Origin: Pseudomonadales bacterium
GTDB taxonomy: Bacteria; Pseudomonadota; Gammaproteobacteria; Pseudomonadales; Pseudohongiellaceae
DNA length: 32,343 nt
Assembly (NCBI GenBank): GCA_022821865.1
Contig: JAJECW010000009.1
Coordinates: 1-32,343, forward strand
Direction: 5' to 3'
The position numbers were made by a program, and so were the translations under genes. The notes below the pieces were generated by a model, which saw nothing but the letters and a program-made list of their open reading frames with translations, made no database searches and was not told the origin of the DNA. Shown one piece after another: positions 177 to 25,445 of this stretch (its first letter is position 1; every line of letters starts with the position of its first letter).

Positions 177-192
177 CCGTTTTGGAGACCCC

Positions 193-546
193 ATGTCCGT
201 TGTTCAGTCCCAGGACCCGGTAATCATGCAGTTCACCGATCAGGCTGCCGACAAGGTGCATCGCCTGATCGCCGAGGAAGGCAATGACAATCTGAAGCTG
301 CGCGTCTTCGTTACCGGCGGCGGCTGCTCCGGTTTCCAGTATGGGTTCACCTTTGACGAGGAAGTGGCCGAAGACGATACCGTTGTCCGCAACAAGGGCG
401 CGAGCCTGCTTGTCGACCCCTTGAGTTTCCAGTACCTGGTTGGGGCCAGGGTGGACTATGTGGAAGGGCTGGAAGGGTCGCGCTTTATCGTCGACAACCC
501 CATGGCCACGACCACCTGCGGCTGCGGGGCTTCGTTTTCCATTTGA
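193..546 (+). CDS. erpA: Iron-sulfur cluster insertion protein ErpA (A-type carrier)
   Basis: A 117-residue A-type Fe-S carrier that receives clusters from the Isc/Suf scaffold and passes them to apo-enzymes in the cytoplasm. The three family cysteines are visible: one in [11 protein letters not shown] and two in the C-terminal TTCGCGASF. Length matches ErpA/IscA (about 105-120 aa). The ATG at 193 was chosen because the reading frame upstream runs through a leader hairpin and does not resemble the family; the protein starts [19 protein letters not shown]. Assignment to ErpA rather than IscA rests on sequence style and on the neighbouring M23 peptidase and tyrS, a linkage known from Pseudomonas-type genomes, where anmK usually lies between erpA and the peptidase. 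It is absent here. The gene is convergent with the peptidase, with a strong hairpin between them. Confidence 0.93.
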
Positions 547-581
547 AGGTCAGGAATCTGGTCCGGCACTTCCATGTGCCG

Positions 582-614
582 CAGGGAAGCTCTGACTTAA
601 TCAGAGCTTCCCTG
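582..614. terminator. Bidirectional hairpin between erpA and the M23 peptidase
   Basis: Perfect 14-bp inverted repeat (arms 582-595 and 601-614, loop CTTAA) between two convergent genes. There is no clear U-tract, so intrinsic termination is likely but unproven. A related imperfect sequence (GGGAAGCCCTGA, then GTCAGAG) stands at 7771-7796 directly before repeat copy 2, so this may be the detached first hairpin of that repeat family. Confidence 0.6.
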
Positions 615-638
615 GGAGCCTGCGGCGCAGGCTCCTAG
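615..638. repeat. GGAGCCTGCG palindromic repeat (copy a)
   Basis: Arms GGAGCCTGCG (615-624) and CGCAGGCTCC (626-635) form a 10-bp near-perfect palindrome abutting the hairpin at 582-614. On the minus strand it reads CTAGGAGCCTGCG, and its TAG is the stop codon of the M23 peptidase. Related copies occur near 17302, 18402, 28938, 29059 and 32229. Confidence 0.8.
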
Positions 639-2140: not shown

Positions 2141-2157
2141 CACCTGATGCTGTCAAA
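2124..2157. promoter_or_regulatory. Inverted repeat TTTGACAGC / GCTGTCAAA in the tyrS-M23 divergent region
   Basis: Perfect 9-bp arms at 2124-2132 and 2149-2157 surround the start codon of the M23 gene, and each arm contains a TTGACA-like hexamer pointing inward. I could not pair either with a good -10. A TAGTAT hexamer at 2175-2180 could serve tyrS. A regulatory role is inferred from symmetry and position only. Confidence 0.35.
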
Positions 2158-3546: not shown

Positions 3547-3581
3547 TCTCGTGTCGGTTTGAGGCGGGCAGTACTTGCTTC

Positions 3582-3610
3582 GTCATTACTGCGCGAAGTC
3601 GCAGAATGAC
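3582..3610. terminator. CATTCTGCG-family hairpin between tyrS and the NamZ-like gene
   Basis: GTCATT(a)CTGCG pairs with CGCAG(a)ATGAC around a short loop, between two convergent stop codons. It probably acts as a bidirectional terminator and belongs to the same repeat family as 4883-4915 and 31355-31433. Confidence 0.55.
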
Positions 3611-3618
3611 GGGGAGGG

Positions 3619-4833
3619 TTATCCCGAAGCGCCATAGACAAGATATGGCCGGATTCGCTCTACCCACTGCCCTTCATCCGCCCGGGCCAGACTGTCAAGA
3701 TCGCCGGGTTCGGACGATGGCTCATCTACCCATTCGCGAAGCGCCGGGCCTCCATTGATAACATCAATGGGGAGCTTGCCTGTTTCGTATTCATACGGGA
3801 AATCACGCCAGATCGGGTATTCCGGATACAGCAGGCGAATGGCCTTGAAGGCGAGCGCGACCAGCCGCCAGGGCCTGAAGGTGAAGTGATCGTAGTCCTT
3901 GCCGTCGGGATGGATCTGAACGCCGTGGCACAATGCGCCCGCATGTTTGTGGAAGGTCGGCTCGAACCAGCATTCGCGCAAGCGGCATCCCTCCAGCCAT
4001 GCGGGAGCCATGCCGTGCATCGTTTTCAGGATCGAACGGGCGTCGATGTCCGGCGCCCCGAAGAGTTCCAGCGGGCGAGTTGTACCCCTGCCTTCGGACA
4101 ATGTGGCGCCTTCGAGCATGACCGTGCCCGAAAAGGCGCGCGCCATTGACAGCGTCGGCGCGTTGGGACTCGGATTTACCCAGGAGCGCTCCGCGACCGG
4201 CCAGCCGAAACCCGGCGCTTCCGTCGATCCCCAGCCTTTCATCGCAATCAGGCGATAGTCGACATCCAGACCGAAACGGTCGACAAACCATCGCCCCATC
4301 TCACCCAGGGTCAGACCATGCCGCATGGGCATGGGTCCCGCGCCGACGAAACTTTCCCATCCCGAACGCAACAGCAGCCCTTCCACCGGCCGGCCCGCCG
4401 GATTCGGGCGATCCAGCACCCACACGGTTTTGCCGTGTTCCGCCGCCGCTTCCAGAACGTAAAGCAGCGTCGTGGCAAAGGTATAGATCCGGCAACCCAG
4501 ATCCTGCAGATCCAGCAGGACCAAATCAAAGCTGTCCATCATTTCGCGGGTGGGGCGGCGAACTTCCCCATACAGGCTGAAGACCGGAATGCCGTGAACA
4601 GGATCGACAAAATCCGGCGACTCGATCATGTTGTCCTGCTTGTCCCCCCGCAGTCCATGCTGCGGCCCGAATGCCGAGGTGATTCGTATGCCTTCGCACG
4701 CCGCCAGCGCGTCCAGCGAATGGCCGAGATCAGCGGTAACCGAAGCGGGATGCGCCACAAGAGCCACCCGCCGCCCGCGCAGCGGCCCGCGCAATTCCTT
4801 TTCCGCCAGCAGTCGATCAATTCCGAATTTCAT
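3619..4833 (-). CDS. namZ: NamZ-like exo-beta-N-acetylmuramidase (DUF1343)
   Basis: About 404 residues of the DUF1343 family. NamZ of Bacillus subtilis and Tannerella removes MurNAc from the non-reducing end of peptidoglycan fragments. Family landmarks in order: AHPASVT, FGPQHGLRG, SLYGEVRRPT, DLQDLGCRIYT, LDRPNPAGR, SEGRGTTRPLELF, EPTFHKHAG and CHGVQIH. The start at MKFGIDRLL is preferred to the in-frame ATG four codons upstream because it begins at the conserved fold. No signal peptide is visible, so cytoplasmic action is inferred. The PEHG motif I recall from characterised members reads PQHG here. It is divergent from murQ, whose product handles the phosphorylated form of the same sugar, which supports the role strongly. 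Specificity is not proven by sequence. Confidence 0.82.
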   Translation of the reverse strand: MKFGIDRLLAEKELRGPLRGRRVALVAHPASVTADLGHSLDALAACEGIRITSAFGPQHGLRGDKQDNMIESPDFVDPVHGIPVFSLYGEVRRPTREMMDSFDLVLLDLQDLGCRIYTFATTLLYVLEAAAEHGKTVWVLDRPNPAGRPVEGLLLRSGWESFVGAGPMPMRHGLTLGEMGRWFVDRFGLDVDYRLIAMKGWGSTEAPGFGWPVAERSWVNPSPNAPTLSMARAFSGTVMLEGATLSEGRGTTRPLELFGAPDIDARSILKTMHGMAPAWLEGCRLRECWFEPTFHKHAGALCHGVQIHPDGKDYDHFTFRPWRLVALAFKAIRLLYPEYPIWRDFPYEYETGKLPIDVINGGPALREWVDEPSSEPGDLDSLARADEGQWVERIRPYLVYGASG

Positions 4834-4882
4834 CGTGCAAAGCATACACCGTATCTTTTTGTCTGCGTCCTACCCTGATGGT

Positions 4883-4915
4883 CATTCTGCGACTGCTCTT
4901 CGCTTCGCGCAGAAT
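4883..4915. repeat. CATTCTGCG-family hairpin repeat
   Basis: CATTCTGCG (4883-4891) and CGCAGAATG (4907-4915) form a 9-bp perfect stem with a GC-rich loop, in the divergent namZ-murQ spacer. It is a second copy of the hairpin family at 3582-3610 and 31355-31433. It may separate the two promoters. Confidence 0.65.
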
Positions 4916-4972
4916 GGTATTCTTGGGATGCCGCCCACGGCGGGATGCCCAATCCACCAACCCATCAACAGT

Positions 4973-5000
4973 TTGCTTATTGGTTTAATACCACTACAAT
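4973..5000 (+). promoter_or_regulatory. Predicted murQ operon promoter with embedded operator-like palindrome
   Basis: TTGCTT (4973-4978), 16-nt spacer, TACAAT (4995-5000). The spacer holds TGGTTTAATACCA (4981-4993), with TGGT/ACCA arms like a HutC/NagR-type site but one base longer than the 12-bp site at 6708. Binding there would occlude RNA polymerase, so repression by the GntR protein encoded downstream is inferred. Confidence 0.5.
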
Positions 5001-5047
5001 ACAGCTTGGCCGCACAATCGGCGAATTACAAGGGTCTTGAGCAACAC

Positions 5048-5959
5048 ATGCCGACGGAAAATGTGAGCGAGCGATTCAGGGGTATTGACCGCTGGTCAAC
5101 GCCGGGCGCGGTCAGCGCCATGTTCGAGGCCCAGTTTGCGGCGATTGCGGCGATTGGCCCGGAACTGGCAAGCATCGCCGGGGCCGCGGAAGAGACCGCT
5201 CAGCGCCTGCTCGCGGGAGGGCGGCTGATCTACGCGGGCGCCGGCACCTCGGGCAGGATTGCCGTCCAGGACGGCGTCGAACTCGGGCCCACATTCGGCT
5301 GGCCCGCGGAGCAGGTGGTTTATGCCCTGGCCGGCGGCGAAAGCGCGCTGCTGAAAAGCGTGGAACTCGCCGAAGATGATGTGGAAGCGGCAGCTCGGGA
5401 CCTCAATGCGCTGGGGGTCAGCGAAAACGATGTGCTCATAGGCGTGTCGGCGAGCGGGAGCACGCCGTACACCCTCGCCGCAGTGGAAACCGCAAACGGC
5501 GCAGGGGCCCTGACCATTGGAATAGCCAATAACCGCCCGTCCCGGCTGCTCGACCAGGCCCGCATCGGCATCTGCGCCGAAACCGGAAGCGAAGTCATCG
5601 CCGGTTCCACGCGCATGAAGGCCGGCACCGCGCAAAAAATCATCCTGAACCTGCTTTCCACGGCGGCCATGATTCGTTGCGGACGTGTATATCAGGGCCT
5701 GATGGTCGATATGACAGTTAGCAACCGGAAGCTGCAAGCCCGGGCCGGGGCAATGATCGGGAGACTTGCGGGCGTTGACAAGGCCGCGGCGGAGAACGCC
5801 CTCAAGGCCGCTGAAGGCAATATCAAGCTTGCGGTGCTTTACGCCATGGGCCTGGCTGCCGCGGAAGCCGGGGAACTGCTGGCGCAACACGGCGGCATGT
5901 TGCGCGAGGCGGTCACCGCATTGCACGACAATCCTGCCGGGAAAGGAGGCAAGCCATGA
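5048..5959 (+). CDS. murQ: N-acetylmuramic acid 6-phosphate etherase (MurQ)
   Basis: A 303-residue SIS-fold enzyme that cleaves the lactyl ether of MurNAc-6-phosphate to GlcNAc-6-phosphate and D-lactate. The family signatures are AGAGTSGRIAVQDGVELGPTFGWP-like in the first third (key residues the SGR loop and the Glu of GVELGP) and SEVIAGSTRMKAGTAQK near residue 190. The acidic segment SVELAEDD corresponds to the second catalytic Glu region of E. coli MurQ. The ATG at 5048 fits the usual N-terminus and length; the much longer open frame upstream overlaps namZ on the other strand and is not family sequence. It overlaps the GntR gene by 4 bp (ATGA), indicating translational coupling. It is first in a likely operon murQ-gntR-nagB-II-nagA. 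Confidence 0.94.
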   Translation: MPTENVSERFRGIDRWSTPGAVSAMFEAQFAAIAAIGPELASIAGAAEETAQRLLAGGRLIYAGAGTSGRIAVQDGVELGPTFGWPAEQVVYALAGGESALLKSVELAEDDVEAAARDLNALGVSENDVLIGVSASGSTPYTLAAVETANGAGALTIGIANNRPSRLLDQARIGICAETGSEVIAGSTRMKAGTAQKIILNLLSTAAMIRCGRVYQGLMVDMTVSNRKLQARAGAMIGRLAGVDKAAAENALKAAEGNIKLAVLYAMGLAAAEAGELLAQHGGMLREAVTALHDNPAGKGGKP

Positions 5960-6675
5960 TCGATTTGTCCTCTCGAAAAGACAGCAATACGCCGCTATAC
6001 CTGCAAATCGCCAAAAGTCTCCGCCGCCAGATTGACGATGGCGAATTCGCCACGGGAGAGGCGCTTCCTTCGGAGCGGGACCTGTGCGAAATGACCGGCG
6101 CGTCCCGGGTGACCATCCGCAAGGCCGTCGATCAGCTCATTGACGAAGGGCTGCTGCTGCGCAAGCAGGGATCGGGCACCTTCGTCTCCGAGCGCATCGA
6201 AATGCCGGCGACCTATCTCGGCGGATTCACCGACGATGCCCTGGCCCGGGGGCAGGAGCCCGGCTCCATCTGGCTGGTGCGGAGTTACGCCCATCCCACC
6301 CGGGAAGAGGCGGCAACGCTCAGGATTTCCATGGCGTCCAGCGTCGCCCGGCTCGGCCGCGTCCGCCTGTCGGGCGGCGAACCCCTGGCCATAGAACACG
6401 CGATTATCCCGGAACCGCTTCTGCCGCCGATCGGGGAAATCGGGGATTCCCTCTACCAGGCGCTGGAATCGAAGGGGAACCGGCCAAAGCTCGGCCGGCA
6501 AAAGGTTCGGGCTTCATTGGCTTCACCCACCGAGGCGGGACTGCTGTCCATCCAGGAAAACAGCGAAGTATTGCGTATCGAGCGGGTAACCTGGCTGGAT
6601 GACGGCACCATGATTGAATTCACCCGTTCCGCCTATCGCGGCGACCGCTACGAATTCGTCACGGATATCCGGTGA
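5956..6675 (+). CDS. GntR/HutC-family regulator (NagR/MurR-like role)
   Basis: 239 residues. An N-terminal winged helix-turn-helix (NTPLYLQIAKSLRRQIDDGEF, then LPSERDLCEMTGASRVTIRKAVDQL, RKQGSGTFV) covers about residues 10-78. A UTRA effector-binding domain runs from about 90 to the end (RLGRVRLSGGEPLAIEHAIIP). HutC-subfamily regulators of amino sugar catabolism such as NagR/DasR respond to GlcN-6-P or GlcNAc-6-P, which makes it the likely local repressor. Its start overlaps the murQ stop. A site matching the HutC consensus GTMTAKAC lies 32 bp after its stop codon, before nagB-II. The effector is inferred, and MurNAc-6-P is a possible alternative. Confidence 0.9.
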   Translation: MIDLSSRKDSNTPLYLQIAKSLRRQIDDGEFATGEALPSERDLCEMTGASRVTIRKAVDQLIDEGLLLRKQGSGTFVSERIEMPATYLGGFTDDALARGQEPGSIWLVRSYAHPTREEAATLRISMASSVARLGRVRLSGGEPLAIEHAIIPEPLLPPIGEIGDSLYQALESKGNRPKLGRQKVRASLASPTEAGLLSIQENSEVLRIERVTWLDDGTMIEFTRSAYRGDRYEFVTDIR

Positions 6676-6682
6676 CAGTGCT

Positions 6683-6719
6683 ACCAGTTCACTTATTCGT
6701 ATTATACTGGTCTATACCA
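6683..6719 (+). promoter_or_regulatory. nagB-II promoter region with HutC-type operator
   Basis: TGGTCTATACCA at 6708-6719 is a 12-bp TGGTNTANACCA site; its minus strand contains GTATAGAC, an exact fit to the HutC half-palindrome consensus GTMTAKAC. It overlaps the last base of a -10-like TATACT (6703-6708), so the inferred transcription start lies inside the site. An extra inverted pair ACCAGT (6683-6688) / ACTGGT (6706-6711) overlaps it. The -35 is weak. Repression of nagB-II by the GntR protein encoded upstream is inferred. Confidence 0.7.
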
Positions 6720-6742
6720 ATCGCGATTCAAATGGCGAATTC

Positions 6743-7771
6743 ATGAACGCCAGCACAAGAATGTTCCGGGAAGCCGGCGAGATTTCCGCAAGCACCCGGC
6801 GGCAGCAAAGCGGCAATGCCGCGCCGGTCCGGGAAATCGCGGGAAAACTGCGCGGGAACGCGCCAAAGTTCATCGTTACCTGCGCCCGGGGAAGTTCAGA
6901 CCACGCGGCGACCTACGCCAAGTATCTGTTCGAAACCCGGATCGGCCTTGCCGTCTGCTCTTTCGCACCTTCGGTCGCCTCGCTGTATGCGGCCAAAACC
7001 GATATGCGGGAAGCGCTTTTTCTTGCGATTTCCCAGTCCGGCAAAAGCCCGGACCTGTTGAGCGCGGCCCGGGCCGCCAGAAAATCCGGCGCCTATGTGG
7101 TGGCGTTGGTGAATGATGAGGAAAGCCCGCTTGCCGCCATAGCGGAGGATGTGCTGCCGCTTGGCGTGGGCCCGGAACACAGCGTTGCCGCCACCAAGTC
7201 CTGCATTGGCGCCATGTCGGCCTTGTATCACCTGTGCGCCGAGTGGGGCGGAGACAAAGCCATGCGCAACGCCCTGGCCAGGCTCCCGGAAACCCTTTCC
7301 CGAGCCTGGGACATCGATTGGCCACAGGCACTGGCCCCCATGCGCGATGCCCGGCAGGCACTGATCCTGAGCCGGGGCATCGGGCTTGCCGGCGCCCAGG
7401 AAGCGGCCCTGAAGCTCAAGGAAACCTGCATGATCCAGGCGGAAGGCATTAGCGCGGCGGAAGTGCGGCATGGCCCCATGACAATTGTGGACCAGGGATT
7501 TCCGGTGATATCCATCGCCACTTTCGACGCCTCCCAGGAAAGCATCGAGAGCATTTCCCGGGATTTTCTCGATTGTGGCGCCTGTGTGCTTGTTGCCGGC
7601 GAACCCGTGCCGGGGGCGGCGTGCCTGCCAACGCCGAGAGCGCCCGACTCCAACTTGCAGCCCCTGGTGTTCCTGCAGGTCTTCTACAAGTTTGCCAACG
7701 CCCTGTCCCGGGAACGCGGCCTCGACCCGGATCGCCCTAGAAATCTCCGTAAAGTGACGAAGACGATATAG
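6743..7771 (+). CDS. nagB-II: SIS-type glucosamine-6-phosphate deaminase (NagB-II)
   Basis: 342 residues with two SIS domains and no glutaminase domain, the architecture of NagB-II enzymes known from Shewanella. These convert GlcN-6-P to fructose-6-P and ammonia and are unrelated to classic NagB. Markers: CARGSSDHAATYAKYLFET (first phosphosugar loop), AISQSGKSPDLL (second), SVAATKSCIGAMSAL, and the C-terminal QAEGISAAEVRHGPM segment, which resembles the isomerase half of GlmS. The ATG at 6743 follows the operator by about 24 bp and gives the usual family length. It supplies the last catabolic step for GlcNAc-6-P made by MurQ and deacetylated by NagA. A glucosamine-fructose-6-P aminotransferase-like name is often given to such proteins, but the context favours the deaminase. 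Confidence 0.88.
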   Translation: MNASTRMFREAGEISASTRRQQSGNAAPVREIAGKLRGNAPKFIVTCARGSSDHAATYAKYLFETRIGLAVCSFAPSVASLYAAKTDMREALFLAISQSGKSPDLLSAARAARKSGAYVVALVNDEESPLAAIAEDVLPLGVGPEHSVAATKSCIGAMSALYHLCAEWGGDKAMRNALARLPETLSRAWDIDWPQALAPMRDARQALILSRGIGLAGAQEAALKLKETCMIQAEGISAAEVRHGPMTIVDQGFPVISIATFDASQESIESISRDFLDCGACVLVAGEPVPGAACLPTPRAPDSNLQPLVFLQVFYKFANALSRERGLDPDRPRNLRKVTKTI

Positions 7772-7796
7772 GGAAGCCCTGATCAAGTCAGAGTTT

Positions 7797-7870
7797 CGTG
7801 AGCAAAACAAAACCACGCTTTTGTTTTGCGATAATGAAAAACTCCACGGATGGAGTTTTTCAGAGAATAC
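7797..7870. repeat. Two-hairpin intergenic repeat, copy 2
   Basis: 70/74 identical to 6-79. Hairpin B spans 7802-7829 and hairpin C 7835-7862. Two of the four differences are a compensatory T-A to C-G exchange in the hairpin C stem, one lies in its loop (TGGA to CGGA), and one lies between the hairpins. It is preceded at 7771-7796 by a degenerate GGGAAGC...TCAGAG hairpin related to 582-614. It sits in the nagB-II to nagA gap, where it could terminate, process or stabilise the operon transcript. Confidence 0.85.
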
Positions 7871-7902
7871 ATGGAAGAGATGCGGTTTTACAGGATGACG
7901 GC

Positions 7903-9042
7903 ATGAAAGCTTGCGTACTTGCCAATGGACGGATCGTCACGCCAACGGGGATCATCGACCGGGGCGCGGTTGCAGTCCGCGACGGGGTGATTGCCGGGGT
8001 GGGGGATTCAATTGCTTCCGGAAACCCGGCTGACGAGATCATCGACCTGAAAAACGATTTCCTGTTGCCGGGATTCGTCGACGTGCAGGTCAATGGCGGC
8101 GGCGGTTTGCTGTTCAATGACGATCCGGGCCCCGGGACAGCCATCAAGATGGCAAGGGCGCATCGCGCTTTCGGAACCACCAGCCTTTTGCCCACCCTGA
8201 TCAGCGACGATCTCGACAAGATCGAACGGGCTATCAGCGCCATCGACGGGGAAGTGCGCAAAAAAACGCCCGGCATCGCGGGCGTTCATATCGAGGGCCC
8301 TTTCCTGAATGTCGAAAAACGGGGTATTCACGACGAACGCAAGCTCCGCAAATTATCGAGCGAGGCAATCGCCATCCTGACTTCCGCGGAACACGCCGCG
8401 GTGGTGGTAACCCTGGCGCCGGAGTGCGTGCAAGCCGAACAGATCGCGCAACTCGTGGAAAGCGGGGTCAAGGTCTGTATCGGCCACACCAATGCGAGCT
8501 TCGATGAAACCCGCACCGCGCTGGCGGCGGGCGCTTCCGGCTTCACCCACCTTTTCAACGCCATGTGTCCCATGCAAACCCGGAACCCCGGGGTGATTCC
8601 CGCAGCCCTGGAATCCGGCGCCTATTGCGGAATCATCGTGGACGGCAAACATGTGCATCCCGCCATGCTGCGCCTTGCCCTGCGGGCGAAACGGGACCGC
8701 AGGCTCATGCTGGTTACCGACGCCATGCCGGTGGTGGGATCCGCGATCGATTACTTCATGCTCAATGACCGCCGCATCCTGGTCAGGGACGGCGTATGCC
8801 TTGCCGAGGACGGCACACTCGCCGGCGCCGCGCTATCCATGATCGAAGCCCTGCGGAACGCCATGTCGTTGCTTGGAATCGGGATTGTGGAAGCATCGAA
8901 AATGGCAAGCATGACGCCCGCTTCCTTTCTGGGTATTGCCAACCAGACCGGATCCATCGAAGCCGGACTGCGGGCCGACCTGCTTCGCATCACACCGGAA
9001 TTCGAACTTCGTCAGGTCTGGGTCGGCGGAGTGGAGCGGTAA
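7903..9042 (+). CDS. nagA: N-acetylglucosamine-6-phosphate deacetylase (NagA)
   Basis: 379-residue amidohydrolase that converts GlcNAc-6-P to GlcN-6-P plus acetate in the cytoplasm. Metal and substrate motifs in order: LPGFVDVQVNGGGG, GVHIEGPFLN (catalytic-metal Glu), CIGHTNAS (His), FTHLFNAM (His), DGKHVHP, and LVTDAMPVVG with the catalytic Asp. Start at 7903 (MKACVLANGRIVTP) matches the family N-terminus. The open frame extends to 7798 only by reading through a structured repeat, so that extension is rejected. It lies 131 bp after nagB-II and ends 8 bp from the convergent kinase gene. It receives GlcNAc-6-P both from MurQ and from direct GlcNAc phosphorylation. Confidence 0.95.
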   Translation: MKACVLANGRIVTPTGIIDRGAVAVRDGVIAGVGDSIASGNPADEIIDLKNDFLLPGFVDVQVNGGGGLLFNDDPGPGTAIKMARAHRAFGTTSLLPTLISDDLDKIERAISAIDGEVRKKTPGIAGVHIEGPFLNVEKRGIHDERKLRKLSSEAIAILTSAEHAAVVVTLAPECVQAEQIAQLVESGVKVCIGHTNASFDETRTALAAGASGFTHLFNAMCPMQTRNPGVIPAALESGAYCGIIVDGKHVHPAMLRLALRAKRDRRLMLVTDAMPVVGSAIDYFMLNDRRILVRDGVCLAEDGTLAGAALSMIEALRNAMSLLGIGIVEASKMASMTPASFLGIANQTGSIEAGLRADLLRITPEFELRQVWVGGVER

Positions 9043-9050
9043 CCCAATCC

Positions 9051-9929
9051 TCACAGATCGACATCGGTGGACGGTCCATTGCGGGCGAGTATCAGCGCTC
9101 CATCGAGCGAGTCGCCCCGGGCTTTGGTCAGTTTCGCCGCGGTTCGTTCCCGCAGCCAGGGCTGCAATCGCTGTGACAAGCCGCCGGCCAGGGCGCATCG
9201 CGGTGCGCCTTTCTCCAGGATGGTTTCGATGAATCGCTCCACATGTTTTACCGCGTCCTCCACAATGGAGCGTGCGATTTCATCGTTTTTTTCGGCATAG
9301 TCCATGATCATGGGAGCAAAAGCCGCGTAGTCTCCCGGAGTTGCTTCATCCATCCATTTGATTGCCCGTCCGGTATCGTGATCGAACCTTGCCGTCACCG
9401 CCGCGCTCAGTGGCGTGGGTTTGGTTCTGCCATCGAGGGCGCGGAGAGCGTGCCGCATGGCGCTCAGGCCCAGCGCCGCGCCACTGCCTTCGTCGGAAAT
9501 GGGAAAGCCGTAGCCGCCGATGGTGATGCCGACCTTGCCCATCTTGATATAGGCGACGCTGCCGGTGCCGAGCACCAGGGTGGCGCCGTCTTCGCCAAGA
9601 TGGGCGCCGAGATTCGCGATCACCGCGTCGGATTCCAGGTGCAGCGAGCGAAAGGGGAATTCGAGCCGGGAAAATGCCTGCAGCATGCCCGGGCGGGAGA
9701 TGCCGGCGATTCCCATACCGGCTTCCATCCGGGACAGTTCGCTTTCCTTCAGTCCCGCGGCCGCGGTTGCGTCGAGGGTAAGCGACAGCAGCACTTCGCG
9801 GAGATTTTCCAGGCCGATGCGGGCATTCGCCGGGCCGGCTTTCGCCTCACCGATCACGGTTTCATCAGCCCGGGTCAGGCGCGCCCGCGAGTGGCTGCCG
9901 CCAGCGTCAATGCCAAGAAAATATCGCAT
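9051..9929 (-). CDS. BadF/BadG/BcrA/BcrD-type sugar kinase (GlcNAc/MurNAc kinase-like, MurK/NagK)
   Basis: 292 residues of the ASKHA kinase fold. PHOSPHATE-1 loop FLGIDAGGSHSRARL at the N-terminus, conserved GPAN, SDA in the middle, PHOSPHATE-2 LVLGTGSVAY, and GGYGFPISDEGSGAALG as in human GlcNAc kinase relatives. Bacterial members include MurK, which phosphorylates both MurNAc and GlcNAc at O6, and glucosamine kinase GspK. Being downstream of a symporter by 8 bp and near murQ and nagA, a role in making MurNAc-6-P and/or GlcNAc-6-P is inferred. This would replace the PTS phosphorylation used by E. coli MurP. Substrate preference cannot be read from sequence. Confidence 0.85.
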   Translation of the reverse strand: MRYFLGIDAGGSHSRARLTRADETVIGEAKAGPANARIGLENLREVLLSLTLDATAAAGLKESELSRMEAGMGIAGISRPGMLQAFSRLEFPFRSLHLESDAVIANLGAHLGEDGATLVLGTGSVAYIKMGKVGITIGGYGFPISDEGSGAALGLSAMRHALRALDGRTKPTPLSAAVTARFDHDTGRAIKWMDEATPGDYAAFAPMIMDYAEKNDEIARSIVEDAVKHVERFIETILEKGAPRCALAGGLSQRLQPWLRERTAAKLTKARGDSLDGALILARNGPSTDVDL

Positions 9930-9937
9930 GGTTCAAT

Positions 9938-11500: not shown

Positions 11501-11573
11501 GTCAGTCCGGCTTCGTTATCCGGTGAACGCCGCGCCGGTTCGTTGCGCTGGTCCGTCCACTGCGGCTGTGCTG

Positions 11574-14297
11574 TCAGAAGCTCGCCCGCAGCGATGCGCC
11601 GAAAGTCCTGCCGACCGGATCGTATTCACTGAGCGTGCCGAAGAAATTGCCGCCGGCCTGCGGGACCGGCGGCTTGTTGTCGAAAACATTCTTCACTCCC
11701 GCGGTTATGCGCATGACATCGTTCACATCATAGCTTCCCGACAGGTCAAAGTACTCATGCGGCCCAATCGTGTCAGCGGGATCACCGGCATTCCTGACAC
11801 CGCCGATGCGCCGCCAGGAAAATTGCGCCGCGAATGCGCCGCGGGTCCAGTTCAGATTGGCGCGGTGCTTGTAGTCGGGCTGCAGAAAACTGGCGAAGTC
11901 CCCGCTGCAGGAACCGCCGAATGTGCCTTGACAGTCCGTTGCCGGCACTGTGGCGTTCGCCTGCCGACTCTGATCAATAACGATCGCGGCTTCATAAGTG
12001 AAATCGAATTGTTCCCCGGCGCCGCCCAGAATGTCCAGTGGCAGGGCGAGGCGGACATCGTAGCCATCCTGTTTCAGGCTCGCAAGATTGAAATCATTGA
12101 CCAGCGCCTGTCTGATCAGGCCCGTCGCCGGGTCGCGCAGCACCGCCCCGCAGAGTGGATTGCCGGCGACGGGATTGTCGATGTAGCAATTTGTCAGCGC
12201 CGCTATCGGTTGAATCTGGCTGACCGCGTCCTCGATTTCGATACTGACGTAATCGACGACAAGGCTGGCGCCTGGATAGAATTCGGGCGTGAAGGCAAAA
12301 CCGACAGTCGTCGTTTCGCCCTTTTCGGTGTCTATGTTCGGATTGCCGCCGAAGCTGTAGGCCGCCGCACTGGTATCAAACGGCGTCCCCGGCGCGGCCG
12401 CCCCCAGGGTCGCGCACTGCGAGGCGTCGCCGCGACCGTCCAGACATGGGTCGCCATCGAAGCGGCCGCCCAGCCGAGGAATGAAACTGCTGCTGGTGGG
12501 ATCGAACAGCGACAGCGGCAACTGCACTTCCGGGCCCGCGAATTCGCCCAGATTCGGTGATCGGACCGTTGTCTGACGTTGGCCGCGGAGCCTGATCTGA
12601 TCGTTGATTGTCCAGGTCAGGCCGATCTTGTCGGCATCCCCCTCGCCGGTATTGGAAAAATCGAAACGCCGGTATGCGGCCTCAAGGTTGATTTGCCGGA
12701 TCAGGGGAAGACCGGACAGCAGCGGCACGAGCAATTCTCCGAACATTTCGTTGGTATCGAAGCCGGCGTCAATGGCGCTGACCCCGCCCAGTCCGAAAGC
12801 GAGGCCGCTGGCAAGCGCGGTCCCCGGGGTTTGACGACCGGTTTCTTCGCGGTACTCATAGCCACCGGCGAATCCTATCGGGCCCGCCGGCAATTCGAAC
12901 AGATCCGCAGTATCTCCCGAGACTGCCAATGAACCCACGAACTGATCGCGCATCCGGTCCGAATGCACAATCTGTGTGCCGAAATCACCCAGGTCGGCAT
13001 CCGGTCCGAATATGTCCACCGTATCCGCGATGGCCGCAAAGCGGCTGGTTCCCGTTGCGCTGTTGCGAATGGCGTTCCCGAAAACAATGGCATTTTCCTC
13101 CGCGCGACCGTATTGCGCATACAGATCCCATGCGATGTGATCCGTAACATCTCCACGGAAGCCGGCCACCACCTGGAATGTGTCGCGGCCGGTTTCGGTT
13201 TTTTGCAGGCCGAGTCCCAGATTCCGTTCGACATTGACAAGGGCGATGTCGTCAACAAAGGTGAGGAGTCCCGATGCCTGTGGCGGTATGAACGGATTGG
13301 CGCGGGAAATCGATACGGTTTCATTGACGCTGATTGGCGTCTGTCCCGTTGAACCGGCCCCGGTGAGATCGATATCCGTGAAAAAAGCACGCCCGTACAA
13401 CTCGATATCGGGCAGCAATTCGTATTTGAACAGGAGACTGGCGTGCAGCCTCGTCAGCGGCTGGATCAGGAATCGATCCGGGGTCACATCGACAGTCTGG
13501 CGCGCAGCGCCAAAACCGCCCTGGTCGTCAAAGGCAAAGAAGTTGCCCGACGCCACATCGGTGAAATTACCGCCTTCGGAGGGAATTGCGGTGACCGTGC
13601 CGGAGGTGAAGTCGCGTTGCCCCGCCAGCAGTTCAAACCGCTCGGTGTATCCGAGATAGCCCACCAGATGGCCGCGTCCGCCGTTGAGGTCAGAGCCGCC
13701 TATCAGCTCCAGATTTACGCTTTCCGCCCCCCCATCGGGAACTTCGCCGGTTGTCGTCAATTGAAATCCGTCAAACTCGTCATCGAGAATGAAGTTGACA
13801 ACGCCGGACACCGCGTCGGCGCCGTAAATCGCCGCTGCGCCGCCGGTAAGCACTTCAACCCGCCTGATCAGCCCGGTGGGCAAGCTGTTCGTATCCACGG
13901 CATTCCTGAAACTGAACGGAACCGCCCGGGCCCCGTTGATCAGCACCAGGGTCCGGTTCTGGCCGAGCCCCCGCAGATCAATCGTCGAGGAGCCAAGAGA
14001 ATCGCCCACGGATGCGCCGGTGGCATTGGCGCCGCCGCCCGCCTGCGGCAATCGTTGAAAGACATCTTCGATCATGACCGAACGATCAATGGCGATCTGC
14101 TCCGAAACGACTGTGGTCACCGGAGTTGATGAGGTCAACTCCGCTCGTTCGATTCTGGAGCCCGTGACGACAATCAGGTCCGGTACCGCCTGTTCGTCCG
14201 GCGATTGAGAAAATGCCGGCCCGGCCCCCGCAATCGCGAAAGCGACCGCTGGAACACGGGCCAGAGAGAGAAATCTTGCGATATCGATACGGGCCAT
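11574..14297 (-). CDS. TonB-dependent receptor 1 (amino sugar locus)
   Basis: 907-residue outer-membrane receptor. Signal peptide at residues 1-31 (ends ...GAGPAFSQ), then a TonB-box-like PDLIVVTGSRIER, a plug domain (STPVTTVVSEQIA, STIDLRGLGQNRTLVLINGARA, RRVEVLTGGAAAIYGADAVSGVVNFIL) and a C-terminal 22-strand barrel ending in ...FGASLRASF with the typical terminal Phe. Cys pairs in extracellular-type regions (CLDGRGDASQC, DCQGTFGGSC) suggest loop disulfides. It is first gene of a predicted receptor-symporter-kinase operon and divergent from a second receptor. Ligand is inferred to be a peptidoglycan or chitin fragment from context only. Confidence 0.9.
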   Translation of the reverse strand: MARIDIARFLSLARVPAVAFAIAGAGPAFSQSPDEQAVPDLIVVTGSRIERAELTSSTPVTTVVSEQIAIDRSVMIEDVFQRLPQAGGGANATGASVGDSLGSSTIDLRGLGQNRTLVLINGARAVPFSFRNAVDTNSLPTGLIRRVEVLTGGAAAIYGADAVSGVVNFILDDEFDGFQLTTTGEVPDGGAESVNLELIGGSDLNGGRGHLVGYLGYTERFELLAGQRDFTSGTVTAIPSEGGNFTDVASGNFFAFDDQGGFGAARQTVDVTPDRFLIQPLTRLHASLLFKYELLPDIELYGRAFFTDIDLTGAGSTGQTPISVNETVSISRANPFIPPQASGLLTFVDDIALVNVERNLGLGLQKTETGRDTFQVVAGFRGDVTDHIAWDLYAQYGRAEENAIVFGNAIRNSATGTSRFAAIADTVDIFGPDADLGDFGTQIVHSDRMRDQFVGSLAVSGDTADLFELPAGPIGFAGGYEYREETGRQTPGTALASGLAFGLGGVSAIDAGFDTNEMFGELLVPLLSGLPLIRQINLEAAYRRFDFSNTGEGDADKIGLTWTINDQIRLRGQRQTTVRSPNLGEFAGPEVQLPLSLFDPTSSSFIPRLGGRFDGDPCLDGRGDASQCATLGAAAPGTPFDTSAAAYSFGGNPNIDTEKGETTTVGFAFTPEFYPGASLVVDYVSIEIEDAVSQIQPIAALTNCYIDNPVAGNPLCGAVLRDPATGLIRQALVNDFNLASLKQDGYDVRLALPLDILGGAGEQFDFTYEAAIVIDQSRQANATVPATDCQGTFGGSCSGDFASFLQPDYKHRANLNWTRGAFAAQFSWRRIGGVRNAGDPADTIGPHEYFDLSGSYDVNDVMRITAGVKNVFDNKPPVPQAGGNFFGTLSEYDPVGRTFGASLRASF

Positions 14298-14336
14298 TCG
14301 TCACTCAATGTCAGATTACATGATGTACGGCAAGCG

Positions 14337-14365
14337 AATATATTACCAATCTAGTATCAATGCAA
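14337..14365 (-). promoter_or_regulatory. Sigma70-type promoter of TonB receptor 1
   Basis: Reading on the minus strand: TTGCAT (14365-14360), 17-nt spacer, TATATT (14342-14337). The spacer ends with ATTGGTAA and the -10 is followed by CGC. Inferred transcription start near 14330, giving a leader of about 33 nt. The ATTGGTNATATATTCG block is repeated in mirror image at 14413-14429. Confidence 0.65.
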
Positions 14366-14397
14366 CGCGCCATACCACCAGGGCTCGGCAAAAGGTA

Positions 14398-14426
14398 TTG
14401 TATTTATATTTTATTGGTTATATATT
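14398..14426 (+). promoter_or_regulatory. Sigma70-type promoter of TonB receptor 2
   Basis: TTGTAT (14398-14403), 17-nt spacer, TATATT (14421-14426), with ATTGGTTA directly before the -10 and CGA after it. Same design as the divergent promoter at 14337-14365. The inferred start near 14433 leaves a leader of about 130 nt before the receptor ATG. Confidence 0.65.
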
Positions 14427-14562
14427 CGAGTCACAGAAGCCAGATGTGTGGCTTGGCGCCTGGTCGCGGGGACGCCGCGTCCGGGACGGATCAGCCCGGA
14501 TACCATCCAAATACACATCAGGCATCGTACTAATGGGGGTAGGCAAGATGAAAGGTGAAATC

Positions 14563-17304
14563 ATGACTTTGCGAAAAATCCTGTGCCTGGCGCTGGTTTC
14601 CGGCCTGGGCTTTCCCGCCGTTGCCCAGGAACAGCAGTCAGGAGAGGCAAGGCAGGAAATCGAACTCATCGAAGTGATCGGCTATCGAGATTCGCTGAGA
14701 AAGAACCTCAGCATCAAGCGGGAGTCCGACACGATCGTGGACGCGGTATCGGCCGAAGACATTGGCCAGTTCCCGGATATCAATGTCGCCGACGCCCTGC
14801 AGCGCATTACCGGCGTGCAGGTGGAAAAGGACGAGCGGGACGGAGAAGGCGCCCGGGTGAGCATTCGCGGCACGGCGCCCCACCTGAACCTGGCGCTCCT
14901 GAACAACCAGCAGATCGCATCGGCCACCGCGAGCAACCGCCGCACCGAGTTGCGCGACCGCAGCTTCAACTATTACCTGTTGCCCACCGAGATTGTGGAC
15001 ACCCTGGAAGTCTACAAGTCGCCGGAAGCCAATATCGATGAAGGCTCCGTGGGCGGCACGGTCATCGTCAGAACCCGCAGGCCACTCGACGCCGACGCCA
15101 ACTCGGGCGCGGTTTCCGCCAGATACTTCAATTTCGACAACGCCGGCGAGAACAAGCCGCATGTTTCCGGCCTGTACAGTTGGAAGAACGACACCGGGAC
15201 TTTCGGTTTCAATCTTGCCTATGTACACCGGGACAGCGCCACGCTGATGGACTCCAAACGGAACACCGCAGGCTATTTCCGGCCAACGGACTACAACTCC
15301 GACGGCGTCAACGAGCGCATTCCCGTTCGCATCGGCGCCAACCGCTACACCGCCGATTACAGCCTCGACACGCCATTCGTCACCCTGCAGTTCGCGCCCA
15401 GCGACGACCTCGACGTGACCTTCACGGCATTGAATTCAGTGACCGAACGCGAGTCCCAGGGAATCTACTCCTTTGGGTTCTCCAGCCTTGCCGCCGCCCT
15501 TTCCCTGGCCGACATCCGCGCCAACAACCTCGTTGCCATCAGCGACGGCACCGTGGTTTCGGGTGATATTCCGGCCTGCTGCACCGCCTTCAACAGCCGC
15601 TCCAACCTCCAGGGCGCCACTTACGACACGGGTTTCTACCAGGACGAGGTGGAAACCACGGCCTTTGATATGGAAGCCACGCTCGAGCGCGACGCCTACC
15701 GGGTCACGGTGCAAGCCGGCCACAGTTACGCCGACGGTCTCGCCATCGACAAGGCGGCCCAGTTCGCCGCGCTGTCGGGCATTGCCTTCGACCTGACTTC
15801 CGGGGTGATGGAATCCACGCTCGATGCGGGCCTGGGCCCCGATGATTACGAGTTTTTCTACTCCCACATCAATACCATCCGCAACGACTCCGATTCGACT
15901 TTCCTGCAGGCCGATACGGAAATCACCGTCAGCAGCGATTTCTTCTCCAGTATCGAAGCGGGGGTCAAGTTCCGCGAGTACAGCAAGGCCGCAAGCCGGG
16001 TCAAACGGGATTTTGTGGAAGAAGGCACATTGGCCCAGTTCGCCGGTGCCGGAATCTCGGAGTTCAAGGTTGGCGCTGTGCCGGCGCAATTGTGGAGCTT
16101 TGACGTTGAAGCGTTTCAGCGCTGGCAAAACGGCATACCCGAGGTGGCGGGCACGGGGAACAGTTCGTGGAACGATCCCAATGATCGCTTCCAGGTGGAA
16201 GAGGAAGTAACCGCCGCCTATGTCAAGGGTAATTTCGAGACCGAAAACTTCCGCGGCAACCTCGGCCTGCGCGCGGTCAGCACGAGCACGACTTCCAGTG
16301 CCCGGCAATATGGCGGGGCCAACTTCAGCGCGGAACGCCGCGGCGCGGTGCAGGATGTGGCCATCGAAAACGACTATACCGACATCCTGCCCAGCCTCAA
16401 TCTGAACTACGTGGGTTTCGACGATGTCATCCTGCGTTTTGCCGCGGCCAAGGTGCTGGCGCGGCCGAACTACGTCAGCATCGCTCCCTTCGAGACCCTC
16501 AACTGCGGCAGCAGGGGCTGCACCGGATTCGAAGGCAACCCGGAACTCGAGCCATTTCGCTCCAATCAGTATGACCTCTCGGCGGAATGGTACATTGACG
16601 ATTCTTCGCTACTGGCGTTCGTGCTGTTCCACAAGGACATCGATTCCTATATCGACATCGAATCCTTCACCGCAACCCGGGACTACCGGACTCTCGACGC
16701 CAGCGGCGCGAATATCATTGAAGCTAGGGAATTCGCCCTGGAGCGCCCGGTCAATGGCGAAGGCATCAGCATCCAGGGCTTTGAAATCAACTATCAGCAG
16801 GACCTGGGATACGGCTTCGGCGTGACCGCCAACTACACCTATGCCGACGCCGACCTGAACCAGACCGAAGCGCAAAGGGAAGCCGGCCAGGAGCCCGTGC
16901 TGTTCGGGCATTCGGAGGACACCTGGAACGCAACCGCCTATTATGAACAAAATGGCCTGGCGGCCCGCCTGTCCTATACCTTCCGTTCCGAGTATCCATC
17001 GAACCATCTGCATGGTGCGAACATCCAGACTTCGACGCAACAGGCCGGAACCGCCGACCTCGGGCTCGGGTTTGGCGTGAGCCGGGGCCTGATCGGCTAC
17101 AAGGGCGACTTTGGCCAGCTCGACTTCAACGCCAGCTACAACGTGACGGACGATGTGGAACTGCTGTTCCAGGTGATCAATCTGGCCGATGAGGAAATCC
17201 TGTGGTACGCGAGCAGGGAGAATCATACGCCGGATACTGGCCGACCCATCGGGGTGTACAACCATGGTCGCCGCTATGCCCTCGGGGTGAACATGAGGTT
17301 CTAG
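14563..17304 (+). CDS. TonB-dependent receptor 2 (TIGR01782, Xanthomonas/Caulobacter type)
   Basis: 913-residue outer-membrane receptor. Signal peptide MTLRKILCLALVSGLGFPAVAQ, then the hallmark plug of the TonB-Xanth-Caul carbohydrate-receptor family: YRDSLRKNLSIKRES, TIVDAVSAEDIGQFPDINVADALQRITGVQVEKD, VSIRGTAPHLNLALLNN, EGSVGGTVIVRTRRPL. It ends in GRRYALGVNMRF with the terminal Phe. ATG at 14563 is chosen because AAAGGTG lies 5 nt upstream; an ATG at 14548 adds five residues, and the open frame reaches further upstream through the promoter. TIGR01782 receptors commonly take up oligosaccharides, consistent with the adjoining MurNAc/GlcNAc genes. The TAG stop begins a GGAGCCTGCG repeat. Confidence 0.92.
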   Translation: MTLRKILCLALVSGLGFPAVAQEQQSGEARQEIELIEVIGYRDSLRKNLSIKRESDTIVDAVSAEDIGQFPDINVADALQRITGVQVEKDERDGEGARVSIRGTAPHLNLALLNNQQIASATASNRRTELRDRSFNYYLLPTEIVDTLEVYKSPEANIDEGSVGGTVIVRTRRPLDADANSGAVSARYFNFDNAGENKPHVSGLYSWKNDTGTFGFNLAYVHRDSATLMDSKRNTAGYFRPTDYNSDGVNERIPVRIGANRYTADYSLDTPFVTLQFAPSDDLDVTFTALNSVTERESQGIYSFGFSSLAAALSLADIRANNLVAISDGTVVSGDIPACCTAFNSRSNLQGATYDTGFYQDEVETTAFDMEATLERDAYRVTVQAGHSYADGLAIDKAAQFAALSGIAFDLTSGVMESTLDAGLGPDDYEFFYSHINTIRNDSDSTFLQADTEITVSSDFFSSIEAGVKFREYSKAASRVKRDFVEEGTLAQFAGAGISEFKVGAVPAQLWSFDVEAFQRWQNGIPEVAGTGNSSWNDPNDRFQVEEEVTAAYVKGNFETENFRGNLGLRAVSTSTTSSARQYGGANFSAERRGAVQDVAIENDYTDILPSLNLNYVGFDDVILRFAAAKVLARPNYVSIAPFETLNCGSRGCTGFEGNPELEPFRSNQYDLSAEWYIDDSSLLAFVLFHKDIDSYIDIESFTATRDYRTLDASGANIIEAREFALERPVNGEGISIQGFEINYQQDLGYGFGVTANYTYADADLNQTEAQREAGQEPVLFGHSEDTWNATAYYEQNGLAARLSYTFRSEYPSNHLHGANIQTSTQQAGTADLGLGFGVSRGLIGYKGDFGQLDFNASYNVTDDVELLFQVINLADEEILWYASRENHTPDTGRPIGVYNHGRRYALGVNMRF

Positions 17305-17357
17305 GAGCCTGCGCCGCAGGAATTCGCGAAAGCGAAAATTCGCTATCGCCGCGACCC
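17302..17357. repeat. GGAGCCTGCG repeat (copy b) with trailing hairpin-rich tail
   Basis: CTAGGAGCCTGCGCCGCAGG followed by AATTCGCG...CGCTATCGCCGCG. The first TAG is the stop codon of the receptor gene. The tail AATTCGCTATCGCCGCG also occurs in the element at 28938. CCTGCG/CGCAGG can pair as a short hairpin and may help end transcription. Confidence 0.7.
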
Positions 17358-17427
17358 TGGTTGAGGATTTCGGAAAGCCAGCGATACATTGACGAGTAGC
17401 CATTCAAAAGCGGGGAACAATACTTCC

Positions 17428-18399
17428 ATGCGCAAGACTCTGCCATCTCTGTTTGTATTGGTGATTTTGCCGCTGGCGGCCCAGGCCGATGATTTCGCCA
17501 GCCGCCCCGAGGCGCTGGAGTTTGCGCGGGAATTCGCGGGGGAAAGCGATTTCGATGAGGGGGAACTGCTGTCGCTCCTCGGGCGGGCCGAGTATCGGCA
17601 AAGCGTCATCGACGCCATCAGCCGCCCGGCGGAGAGACAGCTTGTGTGGGCGGAGTACCAGGACATCTTCCTGACGGAGGAGCGGACATCCTCCGGCGTC
17701 AGGTTCATGACGGAACATCGGGAAGCGCTGGATGAGGCCTACCGGGTTTATGGCGTGCCGCCGGAGATTGTCACCGCCATCATCGGCGTGGAAACCATGT
17801 ACGGCAGAATCAGCGGCAGTTACCGCGTGCTCGACGCCCTGGCCACACTGACTTTCGACTATCCGCCCAGAGCCGAATTTTTCCGCGGCCAACTCAAGCA
17901 GTTCATTCACCTGGTTGAGCAAGAGGGGGGCGAGATCACCGGCTATCTCGGGTCCTATGCCGGTGCCATGGGGCTCGGCCAGTTCATTCCCAGCAGCTAT
18001 CTGAATTACGCCGTGGATTTCGACGGCGACGGCTTACGGGACATCTGGAGCAACCCCACCGACGCCATTGGCAGCGTCGCCAACTACCTGAGCGAACACG
18101 GCTGGCGGCGCGACGACGGGATTGCCTTGCGGATTGCGGCCGGCGGCTTGCCGCCGGAAGTCTTCAGCGAAGCCCTGGAGCCAAACAAGTCTCTCGCCGA
18201 ACTCGAGGCAATGGGCATGGAAGAGCCGCCGGGGAATCTCGACCGGGATCAGCAGGTGACCCCACTGCGCTTTGTGGGCAAGCAGGGCAATGAGTTCTGG
18301 CTTGGCCTTCAGAACTTTTACGTCATTACCCGCTACAACCACAGCAAGCTCTACGCCATGGCGGTGTATCAGTTGAGTGAGGACCTGCGGCAGCATTGA
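17428..18399 (+). CDS. mltB: Lytic murein transglycosylase B-like (MltB, GH103)
   Basis: 323 residues. A signal peptide (MRKTLPSLFVLVILPLAAQA) without a lipobox cysteine predicts a soluble periplasmic form, unlike lipoprotein MltB of E. coli. The catalytic Glu is residue 122 in IIGVETMYGRISGSYRVLDAL. The GH103 core SYAGAMGLGQFIPSSYLNYAVDFDGDGLRDIW and the following DAIGSVANYLSEHGW are intact. It cuts glycan strands to 1,6-anhydroMurNAc ends. Positioned next to the amino sugar locus, it may supply fragments for uptake or be general wall turnover. The ATG at 17428 starts directly at the signal peptide; the upstream frame extension is repeat-derived. Confidence 0.93.
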   Translation: MRKTLPSLFVLVILPLAAQADDFASRPEALEFAREFAGESDFDEGELLSLLGRAEYRQSVIDAISRPAERQLVWAEYQDIFLTEERTSSGVRFMTEHREALDEAYRVYGVPPEIVTAIIGVETMYGRISGSYRVLDALATLTFDYPPRAEFFRGQLKQFIHLVEQEGGEITGYLGSYAGAMGLGQFIPSSYLNYAVDFDGDGLRDIWSNPTDAIGSVANYLSEHGWRRDDGIALRIAAGGLPPEVFSEALEPNKSLAELEAMGMEEPPGNLDRDQQVTPLRFVGKQGNEFWLGLQNFYVITRYNHSKLYAMAVYQLSEDLRQH

Positions 18400-18401
18400 T
18401 G

Positions 18402-18428
18402 CCGGGAACCTGCGGCGCAAGCTCCCGG
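18402..18428. terminator. Hairpin repeat after mltB (GGAGCCTGCG family, degenerate)
   Basis: CCGGGAACCTGCGG...AAGCTCCCGG forms an imperfect inverted repeat, three bases after the mltB stop, between convergent genes. It resembles the repeat at 615-638 with two substitutions. No U-tract. Confidence 0.45.
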
Positions 18429-18486
18429 ATCTTCAGATGTCAAACTGTGCGCGGTTTGGATTCCAAGCCAAAAGGCCGGTTCCCGA

Positions 18487-25429: not shown

Positions 25430-25445
25430 ACCTGGGAAAATCACT

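Follow-up and report, generated by a model that had tools for sequence, protein, structure and literature searches.

An apparently cytoplasmic PQHG-type NamZ homologue as a candidate replacement for AnmK at a peptidoglycan amino-sugar locus

The DNA that we analysed (the window) is an entire contig, C152, of 32,343 nucleotides from the draft genome of a Pseudomonadales bacterium (family Pseudohongiellaceae; 3.38 Mb in 153 contigs). Between positions 3619 and 18399 it carries a block of genes for the use of two peptidoglycan amino sugars, N-acetylmuramic acid (MurNAc) and N-acetylglucosamine (GlcNAc), in which a gene of the NamZ family (glycoside hydrolase family 171, GH171) lies next to tyrS (Table 1). 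The namZ gene, on the minus strand, is divergent from murQ, on the plus strand, and gntR, nagB-II and nagA follow murQ on its strand; the kinase, symporter and first TonB receptor genes are on the minus strand, and the second TonB receptor gene and mltB on the plus strand. The initial annotation of this DNA had read the block as a locus for scavenging these sugars from the outer membrane down to fructose-6-phosphate, without a phosphotransferase system (PTS). Domain and NCBIfam searches found all of the genes that it named in place, and the set makes a coherent catabolic route for MurNAc and GlcNAc that is conserved in part of the genus. The observation is confirmed and the interpretation is supported in part, and the stronger finding is a subfamily of NamZ that seems to replace the recycling enzyme AnmK. 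On balance, we think it probable that at the centre of this amino-sugar module is a cytoplasmic NamZ of this subfamily, called PQHG after its motif, which stands in for AnmK; the activities are predicted ones.

The window protein matched the Pfam domains NamZ_N (238 bits) and NamZ_C (133 bits) over the open reading frame (ORF) 3619-4845, and the Pfam scan gave the NamZ domains only, without the AnmK domain, PF03702. A search of the window's genome (G000) with PF03702 gave no AnmK match either, which bears out the AnmK-free recycling of the initial annotation. MurQ matched NF003915 at 343.9 bits (cut-off 168) and TIGR00274 at 267.5 bits, below the cut-off of 302. NagA (TIGR00221, 305.5 bits) and MltB (TIGR02282, 349 bits) scored over their cut-offs, and the NagB-II model gave 315 bits, under its equivalog cut-off of 430. 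A scan of the intergenic regions for palindromes and shared words found no convincing shared operator.

The kinase matched PF01869, the BadF-type ATPase domain, at 103.7 bits; its nearest NCBIfam model was the GlcNAc kinase NagK_SO3507, at 239 bits and below the cut-off of 370. The earlier assignment as a MurNAc/GlcNAc kinase stands as regards the BadF type and the GlcNAc kinase as nearest curated model, and is presumptive as regards MurNAc. A kinase for MurNAc should have no bulky charged residue at the site of the lactyl group (94 and 133-136 in MurK); at these positions, counted back by eye from the DEGS motif with MurK unaligned, the protein has a serine at 94 and GGYG at 133-136, where the MurNAc/GlcNAc kinase 8zo3 has GGWG. 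These residues are compatible with MurNAc and do not tell MurNAc use from GlcNAc use. The locus holds no PTS gene; the description ‘PTS-free’ applies to the locus, and no search for such genes was made in the rest of the genome. Because AnmK is absent and the locus has no PTS, the BadF kinase would be the natural source of MurNAc-6-phosphate for MurQ.

Table 1. Features of the window in and around the amino-sugar block
Feature	Position	Strand	Remarks
ErpA-like iron-sulfur protein gene	133..546	+	named from own sequence alone; one flank of the usual anmK site; syntenic in L036, L026, L029, L030
erpA-M23 gap, 88 bases	547..634	none	anmK site in AnmK-carrying relatives; without anmK here
M23 peptidase with LysM_OapA domain	635..2143	-	domain search
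tyrS	2260..3546	+	domain search
NamZ-like protein, PQHG subfamily (GH171/DUF1343), without signal peptide	3619..4833	-	likely start 4833; listed ORF from 4845
murQ, MurNAc-6-phosphate etherase	5048..5959	+	start inferred
GntR/UTRA (HutC-type) regulator	5956..6675	+	domain search
nagB-II, glucosamine-6-phosphate deaminase, SIS type	6743..7771	+	start inferred
nagA, GlcNAc-6-phosphate deacetylase	7798..9042	+	true start perhaps 7903
BadF-family sugar kinase (NagK/MurK-like)	9051..9929	-	BcrAD_BadFG domain
SSS sodium:solute symporter	9938..11500	-	SSF domain
TonB-dependent receptor 1	11574..14297	-	domain search
TonB-dependent receptor 2, TonB-Xanth-Caul type	14563..17304	+	start inferred; listed ORF from 14308
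MltB lytic transglycosylase	17389..18399	+	N-terminus signal-peptide-like (by eye)
Block that G056 does not have between its tyrS and 18487 genes	3547..18486	none	window compared with L036

We compared the distribution of this NamZ with that of AnmK in 397 Pseudomonadota genomes, drawn evenly and at least 90% complete. Matches to a subfamily profile of at least 690 bits were of the PQHG type, and genomes with matches of at most 282 bits had the ordinary type only. The profile matched 44 genomes: 30 with the PQHG type, two of which also carry an ordinary NamZ, and 14 with the ordinary type only. AnmK was found in 345 of the 397 genomes. None of the 30 genomes with a PQHG-NamZ had an AnmK match, compared with 345 of the 367 others (Fisher p 2e-31, kinship ignored), and all 14 genomes with an ordinary NamZ only had AnmK. 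In a second set, 50 of the genomes that supplied 80 PQHG loci (completeness not given; the phylum sample also contains at least three of these loci), 47 were without an AnmK match. We regard the non-orthologous replacement of AnmK by the PQHG subfamily as well supported. Most simply, the exclusion would mean that PQHG-NamZ makes 1,6-anhydro-MurNAc usable, as AnmK does.

The 30 genomes with a PQHG-NamZ fall in seven families of the phylum sample. Genomes with AnmK also occur in four of these families (f1, f49, f90 and f91, of which we take f90 and f91 to be Caulobacteraceae and Sphingomonadaceae), and both states are common to the genera g1, g166 and g228. Since both states are found within the same families and genera, the switch must have been made more than once. 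Within the window's own order, one genome (G119) has AnmK and an ordinary NamZ, and another (G118, from a different family and in one contig) has a PQHG-NamZ and a MurU homologue, no AnmK, and no MurQ over the cut-off; its namZ is not near tyrS.

Closer to the window, we examined 146 related genomes, 84 of them in the window's genus. AnmK was present in 123 of the 146, and NamZ_N matched in 12, of which 10 belong to the genus. None of these 10 has AnmK, as against 66 of the 74 other genomes of the genus; one of the eight genomes there with neither protein is at least 90% complete. In G056, a member of the genus without NamZ, the gene order is erpA-anmK-M23-tyrS followed by the homologue of the gene at 18487 (L036). 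Of 20 further regions read from genomes with AnmK, 18 likewise have anmK flanked by erpA and the M23 gene, and in 17 of the 18 tyrS adjoins the M23 gene; G069 has no M23 match there, and in G040 the contig stops within the region. The window has the 15-kb block after tyrS and before the 18487 gene, with a gap of just 88 bases from erpA to the M23 gene. According to the AnmK tree, G056 may well have retained an old anmK, with regain by recombination as the alternative.

The neighbourhood of tyrS appears again in other classes. Of eight AnmK-carrying genomes from other classes, which we take to be alphaproteobacteria, seven have anmK and tyrS in divergent orientation; in the eighth, G407 (L277), anmK lies near nagB-II and nagA instead. 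PQHG-type namZ, which usually has a small gene in front of it, shows the divergent arrangement with tyrS in 12 of the 20 loci fetched and, counted within 2 kb, in 37 of the 80 loci (three loci are in both sets). The window's namZ also adjoins tyrS, but is convergent with it. Two genomes in which both genes are intact have anmK at tyrS and namZ elsewhere, which is what stepwise replacement would leave. It could be argued that place and descent account for the exclusion, and that a mobile cassette linked to tyrS overwrote anmK in a few ancestors without any function in common. Many PQHG genes do lie at tyrS, the carriers in the window's genus are nearly one clade, and the Fisher tests ignore kinship. 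We nevertheless consider this very improbable, because AnmK is also absent where the PQHG-type namZ is away from tyrS (G118 and eight of the 20 fetched loci), because both states occur within several families, and because the PQHG-carrying genomes keep a MurU homologue.

The proteins of the subfamily differ from ordinary NamZs in ways that bear on where they act. The frame of the window's namZ closes 8 codons before the domain match, which leaves no room for an export signal. Twenty-seven of the 80 N-termini read for the subfamily begin near M[KR]FGIDRLL (judged by eye, with starts inferred and some frames open upstream), and many ordinary NamZs have N-termini that look, by eye, like export signals. 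The window protein reads P-Q-H-G where its solved relatives 4k05 and 4jja have P-E-H-G. When 110 subfamily rows, 106 of them distinct, were aligned with 12 ordinary NamZs, the second position of the motif was Q in 106/106 distinct subfamily rows (110/110 with repeats) and E in 12/12 ordinary proteins. The conserved glutamate of P-E-H-G is, we suspect, catalytic, and its change in so conserved a motif may be a fit to a new substrate or a sign of something else. Compared with ordinary NamZs, the window protein further has H32 for N, I120 for F, W186 for M and W215 for L, and a stretch, W346-F349, that most ordinary members lack. Its predicted fold matches 4k05 (Foldseek E 1.3e-23, TM 0.75/0.78, 27% identity) and also 4jja, a solved DUF1343 structure. 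The initial annotation had placed NamZ at the outer, scavenging end of the locus as an ordinary secreted exo-muramidase; the missing export signal, the P-Q-H-G motif and the tracking of AnmK absence by the subfamily speak against that assignment. On these grounds, PQHG-NamZ would be an internal recycling enzyme.

The PQHG subfamily is not rare. When GTDB genomes were scanned with 10 aligned PQHG-type proteins, the search gave at least 583 confirmed relatives of the query, with the subfamily not assigned one by one. The best 80 of these matches come, by their titles, from Alpha-, Beta- and Gammaproteobacteria; 79 read FGPQHG and the remaining one IDPQHG. They provide the set of 80 loci, which shares three loci with the set of 20; one locus, L120, is a repeat of G021. 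A murQ gene is nearby in only two of the 80, L191 and L120 (a genome of the window's genus), and the other 78 have no murQ match within the DNA examined around them. L191, titled as an alphaproteobacterium, has kinase, murQ, nagA, nagB-II, small partner gene and namZ together, in a genome without an AnmK match.

These data can be set against ordinary scavenging, in which NamZ would act as the usual exo-muramidase on imported MurNAc-GlcNAc in the cytoplasm, MurNAc would pass through the kinase and MurQ, and the loss of AnmK would be incidental. Such a role would agree with the fold and domains, which are those of NamZ, with the symporter-kinase-MurQ grouping found in the murTKQ genes of Tannerella, with the TonB receptors and MltB at the locus, and with a second, exported-looking PEHG NamZ after mltB in G074. 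It leaves unexplained why AnmK is found in 0/30 genomes with the PQHG type and in 14/14 with the ordinary type, and why the two genes share a place at tyrS; the scarcity of murQ, near only 2/80 PQHG loci and one of these in the window's own genus, also argues against it. We judge this explanation unlikely.

Directly upstream of namZ, and as a rule overlapping its start, 95 of 101 PQHG loci (92 of 98 distinct) have a small gene with about 175-190 codons. Its product had no match in Pfam, searched with two complete proteins and a piece of 90 residues, or in NCBIfam, searched with two proteins. The structural model was confident, with a predicted local distance difference test (pLDDT) of 96, and its best match in the PDB was 4jpq, a putative carbohydrate-binding protein (E 1.2e-5). 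A carbohydrate-binding module of family 9 (CBM9) ranked lower (1.6e-3), a nitrite oxidoreductase subunit supplied the third and fourth best matches, and no viral protein matched its fold at an E value under 0.001. Proteins of this type are, we believe, those called DOMON-like in public databases. Among 35 chosen genomes searched, the partner was found in five of 17 with a PQHG-NamZ and in one of 18 without. G401 (L345), which has AnmK and no PQHG-NamZ, also carries the gene for this small carbohydrate-binding-like protein, with one stop in its frame.

The partner bears on how the replacement might work. PQHG-NamZ could replace AnmK in another way than by acting on free 1,6-anhydro-MurNAc: its substrate might be a larger anhydro-muropeptide (for example GlcNAc-anhydro-MurNAc or anhydro-MurNAc-peptide), or it might need the small partner or a different co-substrate. 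The place of the partner gene in 92/98 distinct loci and the likeness of its model to putative carbohydrate-binding proteins (4jpq and, lower, CBM9) would suit this idea. As the partner is missing from 6/98 loci and from the window's clade, it cannot be universally required, and we hold this alternative to be distinctly unlikely.

A MurU homologue of at least 137 bits is present in 31/31 PQHG-carrying genomes (the 30 of the phylum sample and G118), and in one of 11 genomes that lack both AnmK and PQHG-NamZ (11 of the 22 such genomes were tested). AmgK adjoins MurU in 11 of the 12 loci read, and likewise in the window's own genome (L040). To AmgK-MurU the window's genus adds the kinase-MurQ-NagA-NagB set. 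From the retention of MurU and AmgK it follows that PQHG-carrying genomes can probably use any MurNAc that is formed.

Conservation of the block was counted on contig stretches fetched from the nine other NamZ-carrying genomes of the genus, in which its core recurs; the grouping is therefore not random and not unique to the window. All nine have the genes for NamZ, MurQ, NagA, the kinase and the symporter (in G036, counted among them, namZ is represented by its first part at a contig edge); nagB-II is present in eight, and gntR and at least one of the two TonB receptor genes in seven each; mltB is present in two, and several stretches stop before its place. Symporter, kinase and MurQ are clustered in the window and in 9/9 of these relatives. 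The genus tree was built from five concatenated proteins (rpe, murU, amgK, surA and lptD) with FastTree supports and holds 78 genomes, five of them outgroups. G027 and G069 were dropped for low coverage from the 80 genomes fetched, and nine of the 84 genus members are not in the tree (G006, G016, G033, G042, G053, G058, G073, G078 and G082).

Some relatives and neighbouring genes deserve separate mention. In G074 (L024:4463-5371), a second NamZ of the ordinary PEHG type, with an N-terminus like an export signal, lies directly 3' of mltB in the same locus; this suggests one outside and one inside NamZ in a single cluster. G069 has murQ, the kinase and AnmK, and no NamZ match. We considered it as a member of the NamZ clade and rejected this, because its AnmK groups with that of G011; its murQ operon with AnmK looks like a separate case. 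Next to that operon (L034) are an MmeI-type restriction-modification gene and a TsaD gene. G062 (L035), a member of the genus, has a second, divergent anmK adjoining a distinct murQ (41% to the window's murQ), a pair like that of E. coli. In the window, a STAND/AAA-type ATPase gene (19617-21674) adjoins the block, and G056 has a shorter relative of it. Parts of a tripartite ATP-independent periplasmic (TRAP) transporter lie at 25371-28184, with DctP on the plus strand (25371-26564) and DctM on the minus strand (26673-28184).

Based on these results, we propose a model in which PQHG-NamZ feeds peptidoglycan sugars back into metabolism. Lytic transglycosylases, including MltB, would produce anhydro-muropeptides, from which cytoplasmic NagZ and AmpD, presumed to be present, would release 1,6-anhydro-MurNAc. 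The PQHG enzyme would then hydrolyse this sugar to MurNAc without ATP. Enzymes of the NamZ family are hydrolases that act at the anomeric carbon of MurNAc. We think hydrolysis to MurNAc most likely because this same carbon holds the 1,6-anhydro bond, itself a glycosidic bond within the sugar. The BadF kinase would phosphorylate MurNAc (and GlcNAc), and MurQ, NagA and NagB-II would convert MurNAc-6-phosphate and GlcNAc-6-phosphate to fructose-6-phosphate. Alternatively, MurNAc may be reused directly as uridine diphosphate-MurNAc by way of the AmgK and MurU homologues. The TonB receptors and the symporter probably import outside sugars of the same kind. Hydrolysis would spare ATP and the detour through AnmK and MupP. 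In its general form, the model says that PQHG-type GH171 proteins are cytoplasmic, ATP-independent 1,6-anhydro-MurNAc hydrolases that have taken the place of AnmK, and rendered MupP dispensable, on several occasions in the Alpha-, Beta- and Gammaproteobacteria, as a third way into peptidoglycan sugar recycling that is aided in most lineages by the small carbohydrate-binding-like protein. For this general form we find the chances evenly balanced.

Several points weigh against our proposal that PQHG-NamZ does the work of AnmK. What we propose is a predicted activity, and the E-to-Q change in the motif could mean different or lost catalysis. The model of the window protein is of moderate quality (mean pLDDT 74). 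Twenty-two of the 397 genomes have neither AnmK nor PQHG-NamZ; thus, the absence of AnmK alone is not diagnostic. Three of the 50 genomes of the second set have an AnmK match as well as the PQHG locus, intact in Phenylobacterium kunshanense and in a Parvularculaceae genome and as a 59-residue piece at a contig end in the third. The NamZ-carrying genomes of the window's genus come close to a single clade: in the tree they form one clade (support 1.0), with one genome without NamZ, G056, nested inside (supports 0.995 and 0.978). A search of the 10 NamZ-carrying genomes of the genus for the small partner found it in none. Only five of the 31 MurU matches are over the curated cut-off of 250 bits, and genome reduction confounds the contrast in MurU, because seven of the 11 genomes that lack both genes are smaller than 2 Mb.

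Passages of an earlier report describe AnmK as a conserved Gram-negative enzyme that makes the sugar released by lytic transglycosylases usable (PMC5371407). According to passages of two studies, loss of AnmK makes Caulobacter more sensitive to fosfomycin and β-lactams (PMC11980594) or moderately more sensitive to ampicillin (PMC13046382). Many genomes near Sphingomonas, Brevundimonas and Phenylobacterium are without AnmK and, on the usual reading, would seem incapable of recycling 1,6-anhydro-MurNAc. If the PQHG enzyme does the AnmK step, annotations and pathway models need correcting for a large part of the Proteobacteria, and there would be a natural contrast to the puzzle of why MurNAc is phosphorylated by AnmK and then dephosphorylated by MupP. 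A subfamily that replaces AnmK points to an unrecognised step in the reuse of bacterial cell walls. Replacement of AnmK by the NamZ family was not described in the open-licence literature that we searched; subscription papers, those on NamZ enzymology among them, were mostly outside the search.

Five known systems are close to what we describe. The exo-β-N-acetylmuramidase NamZ (GH171; YbbC of B. subtilis) has the NamZ_N and NamZ_C domains and the fold in common with the window protein, whereas the latter has no signal peptide, has PQHG for PEHG and is tied to the absence of AnmK. The NamZ1 and NamZ2 proteins of Tannerella are reportedly called exo-muramidases in the title of a paper. We propose that PQHG-NamZ acts on the substrate of AnmK and at the same point of the pathway, and in genomes of other classes the two have the same genomic place beside tyrS; in contrast, PQHG-NamZ is of an unrelated family, has no kinase domain and is not expected to use ATP. 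The likeness to Tannerella forsythia claimed in the initial annotation is borne out by its murT-murK-murQ operon, which combines a sodium symporter (MurT), a sugar kinase and MurQ independently of a PTS, as at our locus (PMC5790795). The window adds NagA, NagB-II, the TonB receptors and a cytoplasmic PQHG NamZ, and its kinase is nearest to NagK_SO3507. From the anabolic recycling route of Pseudomonas and Caulobacter (AnmK-MupP-AmgK-MurU), PQHG-carrying genomes also keep AmgK and MurU homologues, but AnmK is absent from them and our proposal would make MupP unnecessary. Finally, the GlcNAc pathway of Shewanella, with NagK (SO3507) and NagB-II (SO3506), supplies the best NCBIfam models for the window's kinase and deaminase; in the window, both proteins score below the curated cut-offs and are joined to MurQ and NamZ.

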